Positions 5,010 through 22,349 of a DNA stretch of 45,595 nucleotides are shown here, in pieces. Position 1 is the stretch's first letter, and every line of letters starts with the position of its first letter. A program made the position numbers and the translations under genes. This DNA is from Bacillota bacterium (GTDB lineage Bacteria; Bacillota; Sulfobacillia; Sulfobacillales; JAIMBI01), in NCBI GenBank assembly GCA_021846565.1, contig JAJZWS010000023.1:1-45595 (forward strand), written 5' to 3'. The notes beneath the pieces were generated by a model. That model worked only from the letters and a program-made list of their open reading frames with translations, did not search any database and was not told where the DNA came from.

Positions 5010-5984
5010 GTGCTTTTTATAATTCTCTCGGGCATGATCCTGATCGTGCTGTCTGCGGACTACTTCACGAACGGGATCGAGTGGTTGGGAAAGGCGCTGG
5101 GGCTGAATGCCAGCGCTGTCGGGACCTTGATGGCGGCGCTGGGAACGGCCCTGCCCGAAACACTGGTGCCCGTGATCGCCTTGGTTTCCGGGGCGGGCGG
5201 GGCGGCGGCCGTGGGCTTGGGCGCCATCCTGGGCGCGCCCTTTATGCTGGCCACGCTGGGGTTTCTGGTATTGGGGGTGTCGCTGGCGTGGCCCGGCTGG
5301 CCGAGGAGACCCCCGACCGCGCGCCCGGACGCGATCACGCGCGACTTGAGCTTCTTTCTGGCCGTGTTTGGCGCAGCGCTGCTGGGGAGCTGGCTGCCGG
5401 CGCCGGTGAAAGTCTACTGGGCCGGGGGCATGGTGGTGGCGTACCTGCTGTTTGCCCGCACGGTGCTGCGATCGGGTCGGCAGTCACCGGCCGATGCGCC
5501 CACAACCCCGCTGCACCTGTCCCGGCAAATGCCGCCGGGACTGTGGGTCGTGGTGGGCCAGGTGGTCATGGCGCTGGCGGGGCTGGTGGTGGGGGCGCAC
5601 TACTTTGTTACGGCCGTGGAGGCGTGGGCGCGTGAGAGTGGCTGGAGTGGATTTCTGCTCTCCGTGATTCTGACGCCTGTGGCGACGGAACTGCCGGAAG
5701 TGCTAAATTCGGTGATTTGGATCCGGCGCGGCGCGCACACGCTCGCCTTCGGCAACGTCACAGGAGCCATGGCATTCCAGGCTTCGCTGGTGCCTGCGCT
5801 GGGCATGTGGCTTACGCCGTGGCGGTTCAATCCGCTGGAGGGAGCGGTGGGAGTGCTTGCGCTGGCGGCTAGCCTGTTCGTGTATGTGTCAGTACGCCGC
5901 CGCGGACTTTCGCCCCGAGATTTGGTGGGAGCCGGCGCGTTTTACTTTGTCTTCGTCGGCGTGGCGCTGGCGGGCTTGCGCTGA
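5010..5984 (+). CDS. Calcium/cation antiporter (CaCA superfamily, YrbG-like)
   Basis: A 324-aa integral membrane protein with two homologous halves of about five helices each. The alpha-1 repeat reads GTALPETLVP (residues 45-54) and the alpha-2 repeat TPVATELPEVLNSV (222-235), each carrying the acidic residue expected for cation coordination; a GNVTGAM motif (248-254) follows the second. This is the signature of bacterial Na+/Ca2+ or K+-independent cation exchangers. The GTG start at 5010 has GAGGGG (4997-5002) upstream. The gene follows trmL by 52 bases and is the last intact gene before a block of decayed DNA. The transported ion is not certain. Confidence 0.88.
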   Translation: MLFIILSGMILIVLSADYFTNGIEWLGKALGLNASAVGTLMAALGTALPETLVPVIALVSGAGGAAAVGLGAILGAPFMLATLGFLVLGVSLAWPGWPRRPPTARPDAITRDLSFFLAVFGAALLGSWLPAPVKVYWAGGMVVAYLLFARTVLRSGRQSPADAPTTPLHLSRQMPPGLWVVVGQVVMALAGLVVGAHYFVTAVEAWARESGWSGFLLSVILTPVATELPEVLNSVIWIRRGAHTLAFGNVTGAMAFQASLVPALGMWLTPWRFNPLEGAVGVLALAASLFVYVSVRRRGLSPRDLVGAGAFYFVFVGVALAGLR

Positions 5985-6271
5985 CGCGGCCAGGCCCGAC
6001 ATTGCGGCCACTAAATGCCTCTGCTGTTCAGTGACGGGGGTTCTGGGCGGTCGTATTATGACAAGCCGGTGATGGCAAGCAGTCGAGGGCACTCGTTTGG
6101 CGGCTCGGTGTTCCGCCTCGGGGTTCGGGCTCCCGCTACGGCGCGGTGGTGCGACTTTCGACTGCGACTCGCTCAAGGGCCCGATGGCGCGGAGATCGCA
6201 CCAAAGTGCCGGTCGGCCTCCAACAAAGCGTGGGGTTGGCTCGCGGGGCGCCCGGTGGGGAGGACGCAAGC
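5985..6271. other. Non-coding or decayed stretch before the cytochrome b relic
   Basis: No intact gene. One frame reads PRGSGSRYGAVV near 6120-6150, and another reads SLKGPMARRSH shortly after. Together these faintly recall the end of a Rieske iron-sulphur protein (HGSRY ... GPA), which would be the expected neighbour of the cytochrome b relic. The CPCH cluster ligands are not present, so this is only a suspicion. Confidence 0.2.
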
Positions 6272-6610
6272 ATGTGGACGCGGTTGGTGCAATGGGTGAT
6301 GAACGCTTAATGGTGTCGGCATTTTGGCGCGACTTGGCGGACCATCCTGGGATTTGGTTTTACCGGCTATCTGCTGCCCCGGGATGAAAAGGCGTGCTTC
6401 GCCACGCAAGTGGGCGTCAACTTCGTGAAGTACGTGCCTTTCATCGGCAACGCCCTGTTCTTGGCCGTCGCGGGTGGGCCAAGCATTGGGGCGGCGACGC
6501 CGTCGCGGTTTCTCGCCGTACACGTCTGGTTTCTGCCGGCCGCGCTCCTGGGGCGGTTGGGCCTGCACTTTCTCATGATTCGCCGCAACGGGATCACGGC
6601 CCCGTACTGA
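6272..6610 (+). pseudogene. qcrB: Decayed cytochrome b (b6) subunit of a menaquinol:cytochrome c reductase
   Basis: GGGGAGGA precedes an ATG at 6272 that starts MWTRLVQWVMNA, then a TAA (6308-6310) interrupts the same frame. After the stop the frame continues with unmistakable cytochrome b sequence: FGFTGYLLPRDEKACFAT (canonical TGYLLPWDQKAYWAT), VPFIGNALFLAVAGGPSIGAAT, RFLAVHVWFLPA and LGLHFLMIRRNGI. The two histidines of the second haem-ligand helix (HVW and LHF) remain. The first two helices with their partner histidines are missing, so about 100 residues were deleted as well as the stop gained. It ends at a TGA at 6608-6610. In Bacillota such genes encode the haem b subunit of the bc complex; this copy cannot make it. 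Confidence 0.85.
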
Positions 6611-6716
6611 CCGGGCAGCCAGGAGACCGAGGGCCCATGGGTCCGGTCCGGAAGAGCGGGCCGACCGAGGAGGATAGCCGACGGCGGACGACTTGCATCC
6701 TGGGCACCAGGCCAAA

Positions 6717-7356
6717 GAGTACCAGAGCCCGACCGTGGTGCCGTTCTGGCCGGAACACCTGCTGAAGGAGCTGGTGGTGGCTTTGTAGCGGTGTTGGTCC
6801 TGATGCTGTTTGCGCATTTTACGCCCGTGCCGCTGGGCGCGCGCGCCGACCCGGAAGACTGGGCGTTCCAGCCAGCGCCCGACTGGCGAGTGTGCTGGGG
6901 CTCACCTCGCTCGACGGGATCTTGATGTTTGCTCTGGCCACCGTGGGCGTCATGCTGTTTATCGGCGTGCCGTTCATCGATCGGCACAAGGAGCGGCGCC
7001 TCTTGAAGCGCCCGGTGATGTTGGGCATCCTGCTGGTTGGCTTTGTGTTCTTCGGTTACTTCACTGCCAACGGGGTGTACACGCAGAAAAGGCTGGTGGC
7101 GGCCGACCCCATGGCCATTTATACAAGTTCGTGCGCCACGAGCCACGCGCTCGGACCGCTGGGCAACCAGACGGGGGTGGTCAAACTTCCGGATGGACAG
7201 TGCATCTACCCCCCTCCGCTGACCAACGTGGGCAGCATCCTGTCGGCGTTCGAAATTCGTCAGCAGCTGGTGCAGCCGGAGGGAGGCATGCCCTAGCTGA
7301 ATGTGCCGCCCAGAGCCCTGAAATATCTGGTGGGGTGGCTGACCAGTGTGAAGTAG
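6717..7356 (+). pseudogene. qcrC: Decayed bc-complex subunit IV/cytochrome c fusion (QcrC-like)
   Basis: Three frames together give a subunit IV followed by a cytochrome c domain, the Bacillus QcrC architecture. From 6717: EYQSPTVVPFWPEHLLKELVV; a frameshift near 6785; then LVLMLFAHFTPVPLGARADP and EDWAFQPAPDW; a further break and deletion near 6870-6890; then LDGILMFALATVGVML, GVPFIDRHKERR and KRPVMLGILLVGF. The haem c site reads CATSH (about 7135-7149), so the second cysteine of CxxCH is lost. GGMP is followed by a premature TAG (7294-7296), yet the same frame continues LNVPPRALKYLVGWLTSVK to a natural TAG at 7354-7356. Multiple independent lesions show a genuine pseudogene rather than a sequencing slip. 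Confidence 0.85.
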
Positions 7357-16770: not shown

Positions 16771-17622
16771 TCAGTATGTTGAAAGGCTCCGACGCCAGGC
16801 TTGGTACAGCGCGTCGGGGCGCATGTGGTAGATCGCCCGCATGGTGGCGGCAAACGACGCGACTCCCGCGAGCGCGTGCACGAATTGGCGAAACCGCGGC
16901 GGTCCGCCGTACCGAGGACTCACGAGGTATTGCACCAGCTTCAGGCCCTCGCGGTACGCGAGCGACTGGTGCGGGAGGGTGTAAAAGTTCTCGTTGAGGG
17001 CTCTCCACGAGTAGAGCCCCCCGCCATGGCCCATCTGATTGCTGGCGGTGAGCCACTGGTAGCCGGTCGCACGGTAGTCCTCCCACTGGGCCACTCCCTC
17101 ATTGAACCACGCGGGGTAGTTTTCATGGCCGACGCGGTCCAGCAGCGCGTGGCCCAGCTCATGGGCCACCGGCCCCTCGGCCTGAAACGTGGGCCGCCAG
17201 GACCCGTGCGGAATCCAGGCGCGCGGCAGGTCGATGCGGATCGTGCCCGCATCGTACAGCCCGATGTTGTTGGCGGCCGCGGGAAGCCCGGCGCTGGTGT
17301 TGAGCGACGCCCGGGTAGGGTAGATCACCACCAGCAGGGGAGTGGACAGCGTGGCGCCGAGACTCGCCCGCTCTACCGGATAGTCTCGCTGGAGGTCCTG
17401 CAGGACCAGCACCGCGGTCGCCCCGTGCCCGGGTGGGTAAACCACGTGAAAGGGCCCCGCCGTGACCTCCGGGTCGGTGAGGACGGTGAGCCGGAGCGCC
17501 GCGGCTTCCACCGGCCACCGCCAGCCGTACGCGGGCGGCACCGAAGCCACCCCGAGGGCGCCTACCACCACGACGGCGGCGACCCACGTCCACCGTCGCG
17601 TCATCCGCCGCCCGCTCGGCAC
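16771..17622 (-). CDS. Membrane-anchored or secreted HExxH metallopeptidase (peptidase MA-like)
   Basis: A 283-aa protein. A basic start and one hydrophobic segment (about residues 12-30) form a signal peptide or anchor, so the rest lies outside the cytoplasm. The zinc site is HELGH (154-158) with the third ligand probably the glutamate of WFNEGVAQWEDY (Glu 175), the gluzincin arrangement of the peptidase MA-like family. The GTG start at 17622 has GGGAAGG 9 bases upstream; an ATG six codons later (17604) is possible but lacks a good binding site. It follows the YIEGIA gene by 15 bases and should share its transcript, which suggests a role in sporulation. The substrate is unknown. Confidence 0.8.
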   Translation of the reverse strand: MPSGRRMTRRWTWVAAVVVVGALGVASVPPAYGWRWPVEAAALRLTVLTDPEVTAGPFHVVYPPGHGATAVLVLQDLQRDYPVERASLGATLSTPLLVVIYPTRASLNTSAGLPAAANNIGLYDAGTIRIDLPRAWIPHGSWRPTFQAEGPVAHELGHALLDRVGHENYPAWFNEGVAQWEDYRATGYQWLTASNQMGHGGGLYSWRALNENFYTLPHQSLAYREGLKLVQYLVSPRYGGPPRFRQFVHALAGVASFAATMRAIYHMRPDALYQAWRRSLSTY

Positions 17623-17637: not shown

Positions 17638-18567
17638 CTACGAACCGGCGCCGCCCATCGGTCCCTGCACCAGCACGGGGCTCGAGATGCGGTTCCACTT
17701 GCCGCTCTCCAAGAGCGGGGTTTGGCGGATGGCTGTCACCAGCTTCGCCATGTCCCGGTCGACGGGGATGACGCCTAGGGCGGCGCGGCCGGTCGCGTTG
17801 GGCAGTTCCATGCGCGTGAGCGCCCCCTGCTCCGGGTAGCCCACGTCCTTCTGCACGCCGACAGCGGTGACGGCCTCATGGGTGATGGCCTGGCGCTGGG
17901 CCAGGTTCCACAGCACGGCCTGGCCGCGTGGCCCCTTGGGGCTCAGAATGACGCCGTATCCTTCCGCAATCCAGCGCTGCCGCGAGTGGGGCAGACCAAT
18001 TTCCATCAGCATGACGTCGTCGACGTACAACAGCGACTCCTTGGTGAAGTGAACGGTGCCCGGGGTCACGTCGATGACGTCGCCTACCACGGCGCCCGCC
18101 ATGAGCTGCTGGGACAGCACCAGCACTCCCAGTCCGCCAAGTACGCCGGGCACCAGGCCGGCCCAGGCGGTGAGACCCGAGACGCCGAGCGCCACCAGCA
18201 TCGCCAGGAAGGCCCGCGCCTCGTAGGTGCGGGCAATGCCTTCGATGTAAGACGGCCCACGCGGCACCAGGATGAGCTGCTCTTCTTTTTCCAGGGTGTT
18301 CCGCTCCGACTGCCGCGTGTTGTAGAACTGCGTCGCAGCCAGCGTCAGAAACGTGGCCGCCGTGAGCTGCTTGGCGATGAGCGACGTCACGATGGCGGAA
18401 CCTATCAAGGCGGCGATGAGCGCCATGGCCACCTGAATCACGTAGCCGCTGGGATAGCCGGGATAGTCCCGCCGCCCGGACTTGAGAGACAGCATGCGGG
18501 TTAAGACCCCGGCTGCGAGCCCAATAATCATGGGGGTCCAATCGATCGGTGCCGAACTGGAACTCAT
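17638..18567 (-). CDS. YIEGIA-family membrane protein of spore-formers
   Basis: A 309-aa protein with hydrophobic segments near residues 12-25, 43-65, 68-82 and 118-150. The signature YIEGIARTYEARA (107-119) gives the family its name. After the membrane part comes a soluble domain of about 150 residues. The family is known from endospore-forming Bacillota; its function is not established as far as I know. The ATG at 18567 has GGAGGTGG upstream. A forespore-type promoter lies directly ahead, and the metallopeptidase gene follows 15 bases downstream, so the pair probably forms a small sporulation operon. In other spore-formers a small 'capping' partner is annotated for this family; none is recognisable next to it here. 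Confidence 0.8.
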   Translation of the reverse strand: MSSSSAPIDWTPMIIGLAAGVLTRMLSLKSGRRDYPGYPSGYVIQVAMALIAALIGSAIVTSLIAKQLTAATFLTLAATQFYNTRQSERNTLEKEEQLILVPRGPSYIEGIARTYEARAFLAMLVALGVSGLTAWAGLVPGVLGGLGVLVLSQQLMAGAVVGDVIDVTPGTVHFTKESLLYVDDVMLMEIGLPHSRQRWIAEGYGVILSPKGPRGQAVLWNLAQRQAITHEAVTAVGVQKDVGYPEQGALTRMELPNATGRAALGVIPVDRDMAKLVTAIRQTPLLESGKWNRISSPVLVQGPMGGAGS

Positions 18568-18627: not shown

Positions 18628-19908
18628 TTAGTCCTTGGGGAGCGGTGCGGGGGCATGGACGCCCCAGAAGGCGAGCGACGGGAGGGCCACCAAGACGCCC
18701 GACAGCCACAGCACCCGCGCTATCGGCCACACGGTGGCGGCGAGGCCCGCCAAGACGGCGCCCACGGGCCCGGTGGCGTTGGACAGCGCGCCGATGGCCC
18801 CGACGGAGCGGCCGATGGCCTCTTCGGGCACCATCAACAGGAGCGCCGTGTTGATGCTGGTGCTTTGCACGCCGAGCGCGAATCCCATGGCCAGCATGCA
18901 CAGCAGATCCCAGAGGGCGTTCGGAACCAGTGCCAGCGCGACTACCGCTGCGCCGATGGCCACCATCGCCGCCACGTTCAGCGGTACCACGGCCAAGCGC
19001 TGCACCAGGCGGTTTGAAAGGGCGCTGCCCACGATGCCGCCCACGCCGGCGGCCACCCAGAAGCCCCCATAGACAAGGGGGCCGGCATGCAGCACCTGGC
19101 GCACCCACGCTACATCCAGCACCGAGATGGCCACCGAGAAAAACCCGACCGCCATGGCTATCGGGACCAGGCGCCGAAGAAACGGATCTTGCCAGATGAC
19201 GTGCTGCCCCGCCTTCAGCTCTCGCCAGAGGCTGGCCGCCCCCTGAGCGGGTGGGGTGGGCGGCGGGGCGGCCGGGCGCGGGCGGATGAAGGCCAGCGAA
19301 ACGCTGGACGCCGTGAACGACGCCCCATTGAAAAGAAAAAGCGCGGCGGGCCCGAAGAGGCCCAACAGCACACCGCCGGCCATCTGGCCCACGAGACCGG
19401 CGGACGTGCGGGCAGTGGCCAGGATCCCGTTGGCGCCTCCCAGCTCCTCGCGCTCGACCAGCTCCGGCAGCAGCGCAAAGGACGCGGGCGCAAAGAACGT
19501 GCCCGCCAGGCGGGCCAGTATGACCAGCGCCACAATCCCAGTCAGACTGGCCCGGGCGGTCAGCGCCAGCCCGCCCAGCGCAAAGGCGGCGGCGGCGCGG
19601 ATCAGGTCTGCACCCAGCATGGTGCGCCGCCGGTTCCAGCGGTCCGCCCACACCCCGGACACCATCATGAAGAGACCCACCGCGTCGCCGACGCCGCTGA
19701 CCATGCCCAGCGCGGCGCGGCTTTCGGTCACGCTCAGCACCAGCCACCCCAGCGCCAGGCCGTTGAACGCATTGCCCACGGTCGACACCCACTGTCCCGC
19801 GGTCAAGAGACCGAGACTGGGACGGCGGACGGGCAGCCAGTCCGCCAGCGGGTGCGAGGCACGGTAGGTTTTCGGGTTCGCTTCCCGGTTGCTATTCGTC
19901 GCAGCCAC
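18628..19908 (-). CDS. MFS transporter (12-helix exporter type)
   Basis: A 426-aa protein with twelve hydrophobic segments and the loop motif GVWADRWNRRRTML near residues 84-97, typical of the MFS branch that includes enterobactin- and macrolide-exporter-like proteins. Segments such as GQWVSTVGNAFNGLALGWL (first helix) and LARLAGTFFAPASFALLPELV fit that group. The substrate is unknown. The only reasonable start is GTG at 19908, but GGGAGGG lies just 1-2 bases upstream, an unusually short gap, so the start is uncertain. The gene follows the ECF sigma factor by 73 bases on the same strand and may be co-transcribed with it. Confidence 0.88.
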   Translation of the reverse strand: MAATNSNREANPKTYRASHPLADWLPVRRPSLGLLTAGQWVSTVGNAFNGLALGWLVLSVTESRAALGMVSGVGDAVGLFMMVSGVWADRWNRRRTMLGADLIRAAAAFALGGLALTARASLTGIVALVILARLAGTFFAPASFALLPELVEREELGGANGILATARTSAGLVGQMAGGVLLGLFGPAALFLFNGASFTASSVSLAFIRPRPAAPPPTPPAQGAASLWRELKAGQHVIWQDPFLRRLVPIAMAVGFFSVAISVLDVAWVRQVLHAGPLVYGGFWVAAGVGGIVGSALSNRLVQRLAVVPLNVAAMVAIGAAVVALALVPNALWDLLCMLAMGFALGVQSTSINTALLLMVPEEAIGRSVGAIGALSNATGPVGAVLAGLAATVWPIARVLWLSGVLVALPSLAFWGVHAPAPLPKD

Positions 19909-19981
19909 ACCCTCCCGTTCGGCGTTGCGCCTCGGTGGTGTGGTCGGTGGCGGAAGCCAAAAGGTTCTCGGGCCGCTTCGA

Positions 19982-21061
19982 CTAGGCTCGGTCCCAACGA
20001 GCGAGGACGGTCAGGGGCGTAGGCCACTGGCTGGTGTGACGCCACAGGATGGCGACCGCTCCGTGCACGGTGCCGACCCAGCTGGGGGTGGGACGCGCCG
20101 CCTCGAGGCGCGCGTTGGCCGGCAGCTGGACCAGCAGCACATCGTCCAAGTCCGGGGAGACGGTCACGGGCACCTGCAGGGTGAAACGGTCCCGCCGTGC
20201 GCGCACCAGGCCCAGACGCTCGGTGTGCGCGGCGGACAGGTGCGTCTGCACCACGATGGCCGGGTCGTCCGCCGGCTGAAGCGTGAAGCCCATCTGGGGC
20301 CGCCCATCCGGTGTCGGAACCGACAGTCCCCATCGGCCCATGAGGCTTCTCCCGCTAACCGTCTGGAGTCGTGCGGGCTTGGGCCAATCCCCAGCTTGTG
20401 ACACCACGTGCTGGGGCTCCCGGAGCGGGCCGAAACGTCGCAGCGTGCCCTCCATGCGCCAGGCGAGCGTGCTGCCCACGGTGACCACCAGCGCCTGGTG
20501 CCAATCCATCGGCGCCGTGGCCGACATCACCGCCCGGTACGTGCGGCGGCACGCCGCGCAGGGACACACGGCGAGCGGACGGCTGCCCGCCTCAGGATGG
20601 CGCCAGTCATGCAGGCGGGGCGCGAGGCTTTGCCGCTCGCGGTGGAGGCGCGACTTCACGGTGCCCAGCGGCAGGGCAAATTCTTGCGCTAGCTCGGCTA
20701 GGGTGCATCCATCCACGATTCGTCGCCAGAGCATAGAGCCTGGTGGGACATTCACCTGGCGGAGAAGGCTGTCAAGGGTGTCGTTGTCGGCGCGGGCCGG
20801 AACAGCATCTTCGGGGCCCGCCCCGGCACTCCGCTCGCCAGCTCGATAAAAGTTGGCGATGTGGCGGATGGCCAGCGTGTGCAAGAAAGCAGCCGGGTCC
20901 CGAATGGGCTGCTTGCGAGACGCGGCCTGCCACCACGCCAGCCAGATGTCCTGGCACACGTCGTCGACGGCGCTCGCCGGCACACGACGAGACACCAAGG
21001 CCCTTAGCCGGGGGGCATGGGCGGTGACAAAGCGGTTGTCTGCGGGAATGGTCTCATCCAT
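19982..21061 (-). CDS. ECF-type sigma factor with a long C-terminal extension
   Basis: A 359-aa protein; usual ECF sigma factors have about 180-200. Sigma region 2 is seen in DDVCQDIWLAWWQ (residues 33-45) and AIRHIANFYR; sigma region 4 in TLAELAQEFALPLGTVKSRL (120-139). After residue 160 comes a new part: a cysteine cluster CPCAAC (166-171) followed by about 185 residues rich in predicted beta strands, matching no family I recognise. ECF groups with C-terminal regulatory domains exist (for example the cysteine-rich ECF44 type), so this may be a self-contained sensor. The ATG at 21061 has AGGAG 8 bases upstream; the frame extends 16 codons further but without support. No anti-sigma gene is adjacent. 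Confidence 0.82.
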   Translation of the reverse strand: MDETIPADNRFVTAHAPRLRALVSRRVPASAVDDVCQDIWLAWWQAASRKQPIRDPAAFLHTLAIRHIANFYRAGERSAGAGPEDAVPARADNDTLDSLLRQVNVPPGSMLWRRIVDGCTLAELAQEFALPLGTVKSRLHRERQSLAPRLHDWRHPEAGSRPLAVCPCAACRRTYRAVMSATAPMDWHQALVVTVGSTLAWRMEGTLRRFGPLREPQHVVSQAGDWPKPARLQTVSGRSLMGRWGLSVPTPDGRPQMGFTLQPADDPAIVVQTHLSAAHTERLGLVRARRDRFTLQVPVTVSPDLDDVLLVQLPANARLEAARPTPSWVGTVHGAVAILWRHTSQWPTPLTVLARWDRA

Positions 21062-21185
21062 GCGGTGCGCTCCTTTCCGGCACGAAGCGGCCCAGGGTAT
21101 ACGATACACGGGTGTGCCACTGGTATGGGTGGCCGAGACCCGGTAGAGTGGACGCTAAGAGGCGCCGAACCGGCAGGAGGGGACG

Positions 21186-22349
21186 ATGGACGTGGGCGAA
21201 TGGCGATGGGTGTCGGCGGGGGAATCCCATGGCCCGGCGCTGGTGGGCGTGGTGGAAGGGGTCCCGGCGGGCGTCCCGCTGACGCGGGCGCATGTGGACC
21301 GGGATTTGGGCCGGCGTCAGCAGGGCTACGGACGCGGCGACCGCCAAAAGATTGAGCAGGATCGGGTGGAAATCCTGGGAGGTGTCCGCCATGGGCGCAC
21401 GCTCGGAAGCCCCGTGGCGCTTCTGGTGCGCAATCGGGACTACGAAAATTGGCGCGAAAGCATGTCCCCGGACCCGGGCGATCCCGACCGGGTGGTGACG
21501 CGGCCGCGCCCCGGACACGCCGACCTGGTCGGCGGGCTGAAGTATGGCCACCGGGATCTGCGCAATGTGCTGGAACGGGCCAGCGCCCGCGAAACGACCA
21601 TGCGCGTGGCGACCGCCGCCGTCGCGCGGGCGTTTTTGTCGGAACTGGGGGTGCAGGTGGCCGGGCACGTCGTGCGCATTGGCCCGCATACGGTCGCCGA
21701 TCGCGAGTACACGCTGGCCGACTTTGACCGCGTGGACGAGTCCCCAGTGCGCGTGATTGACCGCCAAGCGGAGGCATCGATGGCCGGGGCGATCGACGCG
21801 GCCAAGGCGGCGGGCGATACCCTGGGCGGCCAGTTCGAGGTGCGCGTGTTTGGGCTGCCCGTGGGCTTGGGCAGCTACGTCCAGTGGCACCGGCGGCTGG
21901 AATCCCAGCTGGCGGGCGCCATGCTGTCCATTCCTGCCATGAAGGCGGTGGAAGTGGGCACGGGATTCCGTCAGACGGAGGCGTCTGGCTCGCAGGTGCA
22001 CGACCCGATTCGCTGGTCGGCCGAAAAGGGCTTCTACCGGGACAGCAACCGGGCCGGCGGCATTGAAGGGGGTATCACTACGGGAGCGCCGCTGGTCATT
22101 CGCGTGGGCATGAAGCCGCTGTCGACCCTCTTAAAGCCGCTCGACAGCGTGGACATCGCCACCAAAGAGGCCTACCAGGCGCAGGTGGAGCGTTCGGATG
22201 TCACGGCAGTGCCCTCGGCCGTCGTGGTTGGGGAAGCCATGGCGTTGCATGTGGCCGCGGCAGCCGTGTTGGAGAAGTTTGGCGGCGACTCGCTGGAGGA
22301 GATTCAGGAGCGATGGCAGCATTGGGTCGAAAAGGTCAGAAACTTTTGA
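21186..22349 (+). CDS. aroC: Chorismate synthase
   Basis: Converts 5-enolpyruvylshikimate 3-phosphate to chorismate with reduced FMN, the last step of the shikimate pathway. The 387-aa protein has the family signatures AGESHGPALVGVVEGVPAG at the N-terminus, RRQQGYGRGDRQ, RPRPGHADLVGGLKYGHRDL with RNVLERASARETT, and GGIEGGITTGAPLVIRV. Length is normal. The ATG at 21186 has AGGAGGGG upstream. It opens the run aroC-aroK-aroB and overlaps aroK by 37 bases. The 125 bases between it and the divergent sigma factor hold no promoter I can call with confidence. Confidence 0.96.
   Translation: MDVGEWRWVSAGESHGPALVGVVEGVPAGVPLTRAHVDRDLGRRQQGYGRGDRQKIEQDRVEILGGVRHGRTLGSPVALLVRNRDYENWRESMSPDPGDPDRVVTRPRPGHADLVGGLKYGHRDLRNVLERASARETTMRVATAAVARAFLSELGVQVAGHVVRIGPHTVADREYTLADFDRVDESPVRVIDRQAEASMAGAIDAAKAAGDTLGGQFEVRVFGLPVGLGSYVQWHRRLESQLAGAMLSIPAMKAVEVGTGFRQTEASGSQVHDPIRWSAEKGFYRDSNRAGGIEGGITTGAPLVIRVGMKPLSTLLKPLDSVDIATKEAYQAQVERSDVTAVPSAVVVGEAMALHVAAAAVLEKFGGDSLEEIQERWQHWVEKVRNF

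Follow-up and report, generated by a model that had tools for sequence, protein, structure and literature searches.

In ECF sigma factors of group ECF41, a C-terminal regulatory domain is fused to the sigma factor, the adjoining gene is the sole detectable target and the promoter is specific to the group (PMC3426412). Members of group ECF42 have a C-terminal extension of ~200 residues and no anti-sigma factor (PMC8999054), and the ECF sigma factor described here is alike in both respects. Its gene lies on the minus strand of a 45,595-nucleotide stretch of DNA that was analyzed as a whole (hereafter, the window), at 19985..21061, with the stop codon at 19982-19984. The intact ORF starts with an ATG at 21061, preceded by an AGGAG ribosome site, and encodes 359 residues that Pfam and homologues identify as an ECF sigma factor with a C-terminal domain (CTD). 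Our combined findings suggest, with a probability of about 0.72, that this is a one-protein sigma switch, in which the CTD restrains its own sigma part and the adjacent exporter gene is the main or only target.

The sigma part and its C-terminal domain

The sigma part (residues 1-154; 20600..21061, minus strand) consists of regions 2 and 4 without regions 1 and 3, as is characteristic of ECF sigma factors. Pfam detected region 2 at residues 12-76 (Sigma70_r2, E 9.6e-11), as it did in all 14 family members scanned, whereas region 4 was marginal (r4_2, residues 110-146, E 9.3e-6, 25.6 bits versus a cut-off of 25.7). The recognition helix GT[VI]KSR is unchanged throughout the family. These two Pfam matches, one of them marginal, bear out the ECF identity assigned in an earlier, sequence-only reading of this DNA.

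The CTD, a soluble domain of 205 residues, begins at about residue 155 and takes up the rest of the protein. The sequence-only reading had called it unrecognised and proposed a profile search against Pfam; residues 155-359 matched no model in Pfam or in NCBIfam, and among PDB sequences there was no match below E 0.6 within these residues. It contains no transmembrane stretch (top 19-residue hydropathy, 1.03). AlphaFold2 models had a mean pLDDT of 82 for the whole protein and 87 for the CTD alone (pTM 0.85 for the latter), with a single short helix past the cysteines followed by a domain that is rich in beta strands from residue 187 on, as the earlier reading had anticipated. When the CTD was compared with the PDB using Foldseek, the matches were mainly M1 aminopeptidases (E 1.5e-6, probability 1.00, rmsd ~6), and the best matches across the CTD were to their N-terminal beta domain. 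The beta domain (~residues 187-359; 19985..20503, minus strand) is thus similar to this domain at the level of fold. However, the TM-score is only 0.44 by query length at 15% identity, and the window protein has neither the catalytic domain nor a sequence-level match. We therefore take the relationship suggested by the models to be fold resemblance, not membership.

Full-length relatives show that the extension is not an artefact of gene fusion or of reading frame, which the earlier reading had named as something that would refute it. Among 61 related genomes, each of the other three in the genus has an orthologue (95, 66 and 52% identical across the full length), the genome of the window itself has a paralogue (36% identical over residues 16-355), and further genera contributed single family members. 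Relative to the 66%-identical orthologue in genome G003, which served as reference because the pair with G002 was too close for use, dN/dS was 0.33 for the CTD and equally 0.33 for the sigma part. The CTD is under purifying selection.

Distribution, the paired exporter gene and its promoter

We estimated the extent of the family using profiles of the CTD only (A2, A3 and A5). These recovered 15 ECF-MFS modules from the order, spread over 11 genomes, and a different family of the class (f27) contributed three, which makes 18 modules in 14 genomes, with several mutual orthologues among them. Variants to which we gave the inferred label Sulfobacillus-like have the same layout with diverged CTDs (hhalign of A2 versus A3, E 1.4e-5, probability 80%), and an f27 member (L141) aligned to A2 with E 4.9e-8 and a probability of 95%. 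Across the phylum, 398 sampled genomes yielded no convincing CTD beyond the class, at limited sensitivity as few candidates were scored per genome, and no description of an ECF-MFS group of this type turned up in the literature searched. One third-type module (G001:C49; L071, ~5091-6965) has an ECF gene split into two frames and an MFS gene that is apparently frame-shifted, with an intact promoter; it is either a pseudogene or the product of assembly errors.

The sole constant neighbour is an MFS gene, found directly downstream on the same strand in all 18 modules. In the window, it encodes a predicted exporter of 426 residues (MFS_1 / MFS_3; 18628..19908, minus strand, with an uncertain GTG start at 19908) that exceeds the Pfam cut-off for MFS_3 (93.4 bits versus 27) and falls below that for TIGR00900 in NCBIfam (166.7 versus 319.6). 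The partner MFS proteins form at least three groups that are only ~25-36% identical to each other, and a single substrate for all of them is therefore unlikely, judging by sequence. MFS homologues that are unlinked to an ECF gene are often preceded by a gene for an HTH protein, ArsR-like by eye (e.g., L086, L087, L094, L095 and L096); the ECF gene thus occupies the place of a local regulator.

Other neighbours vary by group and include aroC and aroK as well as genes that we read by eye as peptidyl-prolyl isomerase-like, NADH dehydrogenase and aldo-keto-reductase-like. No anti-sigma gene adjoined any ECF-CTD locus examined, in keeping with what had been claimed for the window, where the neighbours are the MFS gene, YIEGIA, Peptidase_MA_2 and a divergent aroC. 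The YIEGIA family protein (17638-18567, minus strand; Pfam E 4.8e-89) adjoins the module in the genus only. It is followed by a Peptidase_MA_2 metalloprotease with an HELGH motif and a signal-like N-terminus (16771-17622, minus strand), three genes downstream of the ECF gene. Since this gene adjoins the module only in the loci of genus 'a', we regard a connection between it and the M1-like fold of the CTD as chance.

A promoter motif, GAAC-N17-CGA[C/T], mostly in the form GAACCTTT... / GAACCTTTT, lies between the ECF stop codon and the MFS start codon. The copy found in the window by motif search is GAACCTTTTGGCTTCCGCCACCGAC (19943..19967, minus strand), with the -35 element at 19967-19959 and the -10 element, CGAC, at 19946-19943. 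The AAC-type -35 and CG-type -10 at this putative target are a further characteristic of ECF sigma factors. The motif was present in 17 of the 18 ECF-MFS gaps, versus 0.09 expected from dinucleotide shuffles, with three of the 17 loci (f27) discovered after the motif had been defined; the eighteenth gap (G023) has N16 spacing. This enrichment supports the exporter gene as a target, which the sequence-only reading had thought plausible. In an order-wide scan, a stricter pattern matched every type-1 module, and it occurred 1-4 times per genome in the six module-carrying genomes of the window's own family, which is about as often as the reversed control pattern. Genome-wide, there was no clear excess of the promoter pattern that would point to a wider regulon. 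In the 260 bases that precede the ECF gene, the motif was absent in 14 of the 15 order modules, the remaining one (G006) having a weaker match, GAAC-N17-CGT. Thus, of the promoter proposed earlier as shared by the two genes, only the MFS side was found, and autoregulation through the same motif is not supported. The presence of the motif before the MFS gene, its scarcity genome-wide and its absence before the ECF gene suggest that the MFS gene is likely the main target and that transcription of the ECF gene probably relies on a different promoter. The ECF-aroC intergenic region is conserved within the genus.

The leader of the MFS gene contains an inverted repeat (19905..19943, minus strand), found by repeat search, whose arms, CCACACC (19943-19937) and GGTGTGG (19911-19905), overlap the -10 element and the start codon, respectively. 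Most type-1 modules have such a repeat, extending from the -10 element towards the ribosome site or the start codon, with sequences that differ among lineages. Because the hairpins aligned too poorly in MAFFT for base pairs to be counted, stems were tested in each sequence separately: they were longer than in shuffles in 10 of 12 (p 0.001-0.055), the exceptions being G001a and G001b. Single-sequence fold z-scores of the leader were modest, and nothing in Rfam matched at 19700-21300. Transcription starting a few bases past the -10 element would yield transcripts without the outer 5' arm, whereas read-through transcripts would carry it. Since the 5' arm begins at the -10 element, only transcripts from the ECF promoter would escape a hairpin near the ribosome site, and it is possible that the repeat gates translation of read-through transcripts. 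Late genes of phage T4 have a comparable leader device. A repeat overlapping the -10 element was also seen in L069, L072, L073, L074, L075, L076 and L077, with lineage-specific compensating sequences. In the two g2 genomes, an ORF of ~30-40 codons that has a ribosome site of its own separates the promoter from the MFS gene (L074, ~1775-1895; L075, ~2889-2970), ending in L075 directly at the MFS start (TAA-ATG); this short ORF could encode a leader peptide.

A candidate one-protein switch and its alternatives

With an MFS partner in 18 of 18 modules and the promoter in 17 of 18, the module looks like a self-contained sense-and-pump-out switch. In our model, the CTD would keep the sigma part inactive, or in a conformation of low activity, and release it on binding the exported compound or a related signal. 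Once free, the sigma part would direct RNA polymerase to GAAC-N17-CGA before the MFS gene, and to little else. The model has the CTD inhibit the sigma part; it may instead activate it. As no copy of the motif precedes it, the ECF gene itself would probably be expressed at a low, steady level, with control exerted after translation. The CTD probably originated as a fused zinc-finger anti-sigma-like segment together with a beta-sandwich ligand domain.

Two other explanations turn on the cysteines with which the extension opens. The sequence-only reading had noted a CPCAAC cluster there, possibly metal- or redox-sensing. The cluster is present (residues 166-171, with C166, C168 and C171; 20549..20566, minus strand), the other cysteines of the protein being at 36 and 119. 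Metal binding or oxidation sensing by the cluster, with direct control of sigma activity, would fit the CxxC (C168, C171) that is invariant among type-1 members, as well as the CxH...CxxC of b-type members, which could make a metal site. However, this CxxC is the only part of the cluster retained in close relatives, Sulfobacillus-like members have no cysteines there even though their layout, MFS gene and promoter are the same, and f27 members carry a structural form, C...HxxxCxxC after region 4, which is the pattern of a class I anti-sigma zinc finger. We consequently find direct metal or redox sensing very unlikely. The HxxxCxxC is limited to the three f27 members, the most distant of the family, where zf-HC2 stayed below the Pfam cut-off (E 0.026 and 0.076), and the window copy retains the CxxC only. 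Because HxxxCxxC occurs in distant members and the cysteines are absent from Sulfobacillus-like variants, the CPCAAC cluster probably represents an eroded zinc finger, a likelier reading than that of a primary sensor. The same sub-threshold fingers, and the proposal that extensions may stem from fused anti-sigma factors (PMC8999054), would suit a CTD that is the remnant of an anti-sigma domain and has to be cleaved off by a protease, as in IutY or ECF52/53, rather than acting as a reversible ligand switch. Yet the CTD has no transmembrane segment, its beta domain is conserved and well folded in the model, and Sulfobacillus-like members keep the beta part despite cysteine loss, which makes removal by proteolysis quite unlikely.

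Alternatively, the transporter itself may be the sensor; by binding the CTD, it would tether the sigma factor to the membrane and let go only upon substrate transport, with feedback from sigma to MFS. The strict pairing would be expected from such an arrangement, and the lack of a transmembrane stretch in the CTD makes a membrane partner possible. The layout and promoter are nonetheless constant while the partners are diverse, down to ~25% identity between groups; the MFS proteins are of normal length and show no obvious additional domain, and their homologues elsewhere work without an ECF sigma factor. We consider a sensing transporter unlikely, and favour the switch in which the CTD controls its own sigma part.

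The CTD, which no family library recognises, is an addition to the built-in regulators known from ECF sigma factors, and the rest of the circuit comes with it, namely a predicted promoter and a single target. The module would be a small, portable sensor-promoter-output unit and a route to finding the exported compound. The family also offers an apparent evolutionary series, in which the order of loss would be from the anti-sigma-like finger of f27 to CxxC to no cysteines.

Comparison with known ECF groups

The sequence-only reading had found no match to the groups with fused regulators that it recognised, and this held when we looked for the defining features of ECF41 and ECF42. The ECF42 extension is made of TPR helices, whereas the window extension is beta-rich with no TPR match, and no YCII/DGPF gene was among the neighbours of the window family. 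ECF238 (CorE), with its Cys-rich domain, is similar in having cysteines at the start of the extension; however, its CXC is in the sigma2-sigma4 linker, where the window protein has no cysteine (residues 76-108), and the window extension has only three cysteines plus a large additional beta domain. The fused anti-sigma domains of ECF52/53 and IutY resemble distant members of the window family in having a zinc-finger-like motif past region 4, but this finger is worn down or lost in most members. Moreover, in ECF52, ECF53 and ECF48 a transmembrane helix follows the zinc finger, in contrast to the window CTD. Thus, none of the SnoaL, TPR, CorE and transmembrane anti-sigma types of extension is matched by the sequence or model features of the window CTD.

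We tentatively propose, as a fuller reading that is less probable than the switch itself and on balance doubtful, an undescribed ECF group in which an M1-N-like beta domain, fused by way of what is left of an anti-sigma zinc finger, detects a compound and turns on one dedicated exporter, with the leader repeat gating the message. The features that define ECF41, ECF42, ECF238 and ECF52/53 were looked for in the window protein and its relatives and not found. By analogy, the closest working model is ECF41, with which the window protein shares a fused soluble C-terminal domain, the lack of an anti-sigma gene, an adjoining gene as its predicted target and a dedicated promoter. It differs in that ECF41 has a SnoaL-like domain, not found in 14 members of the window family at E up to 10, and in that the ECF41 promoter is TGTCACA / CGTC beside a COE gene, whereas the window family has GAACC / CGA and a predicted MFS target, which is always downstream.
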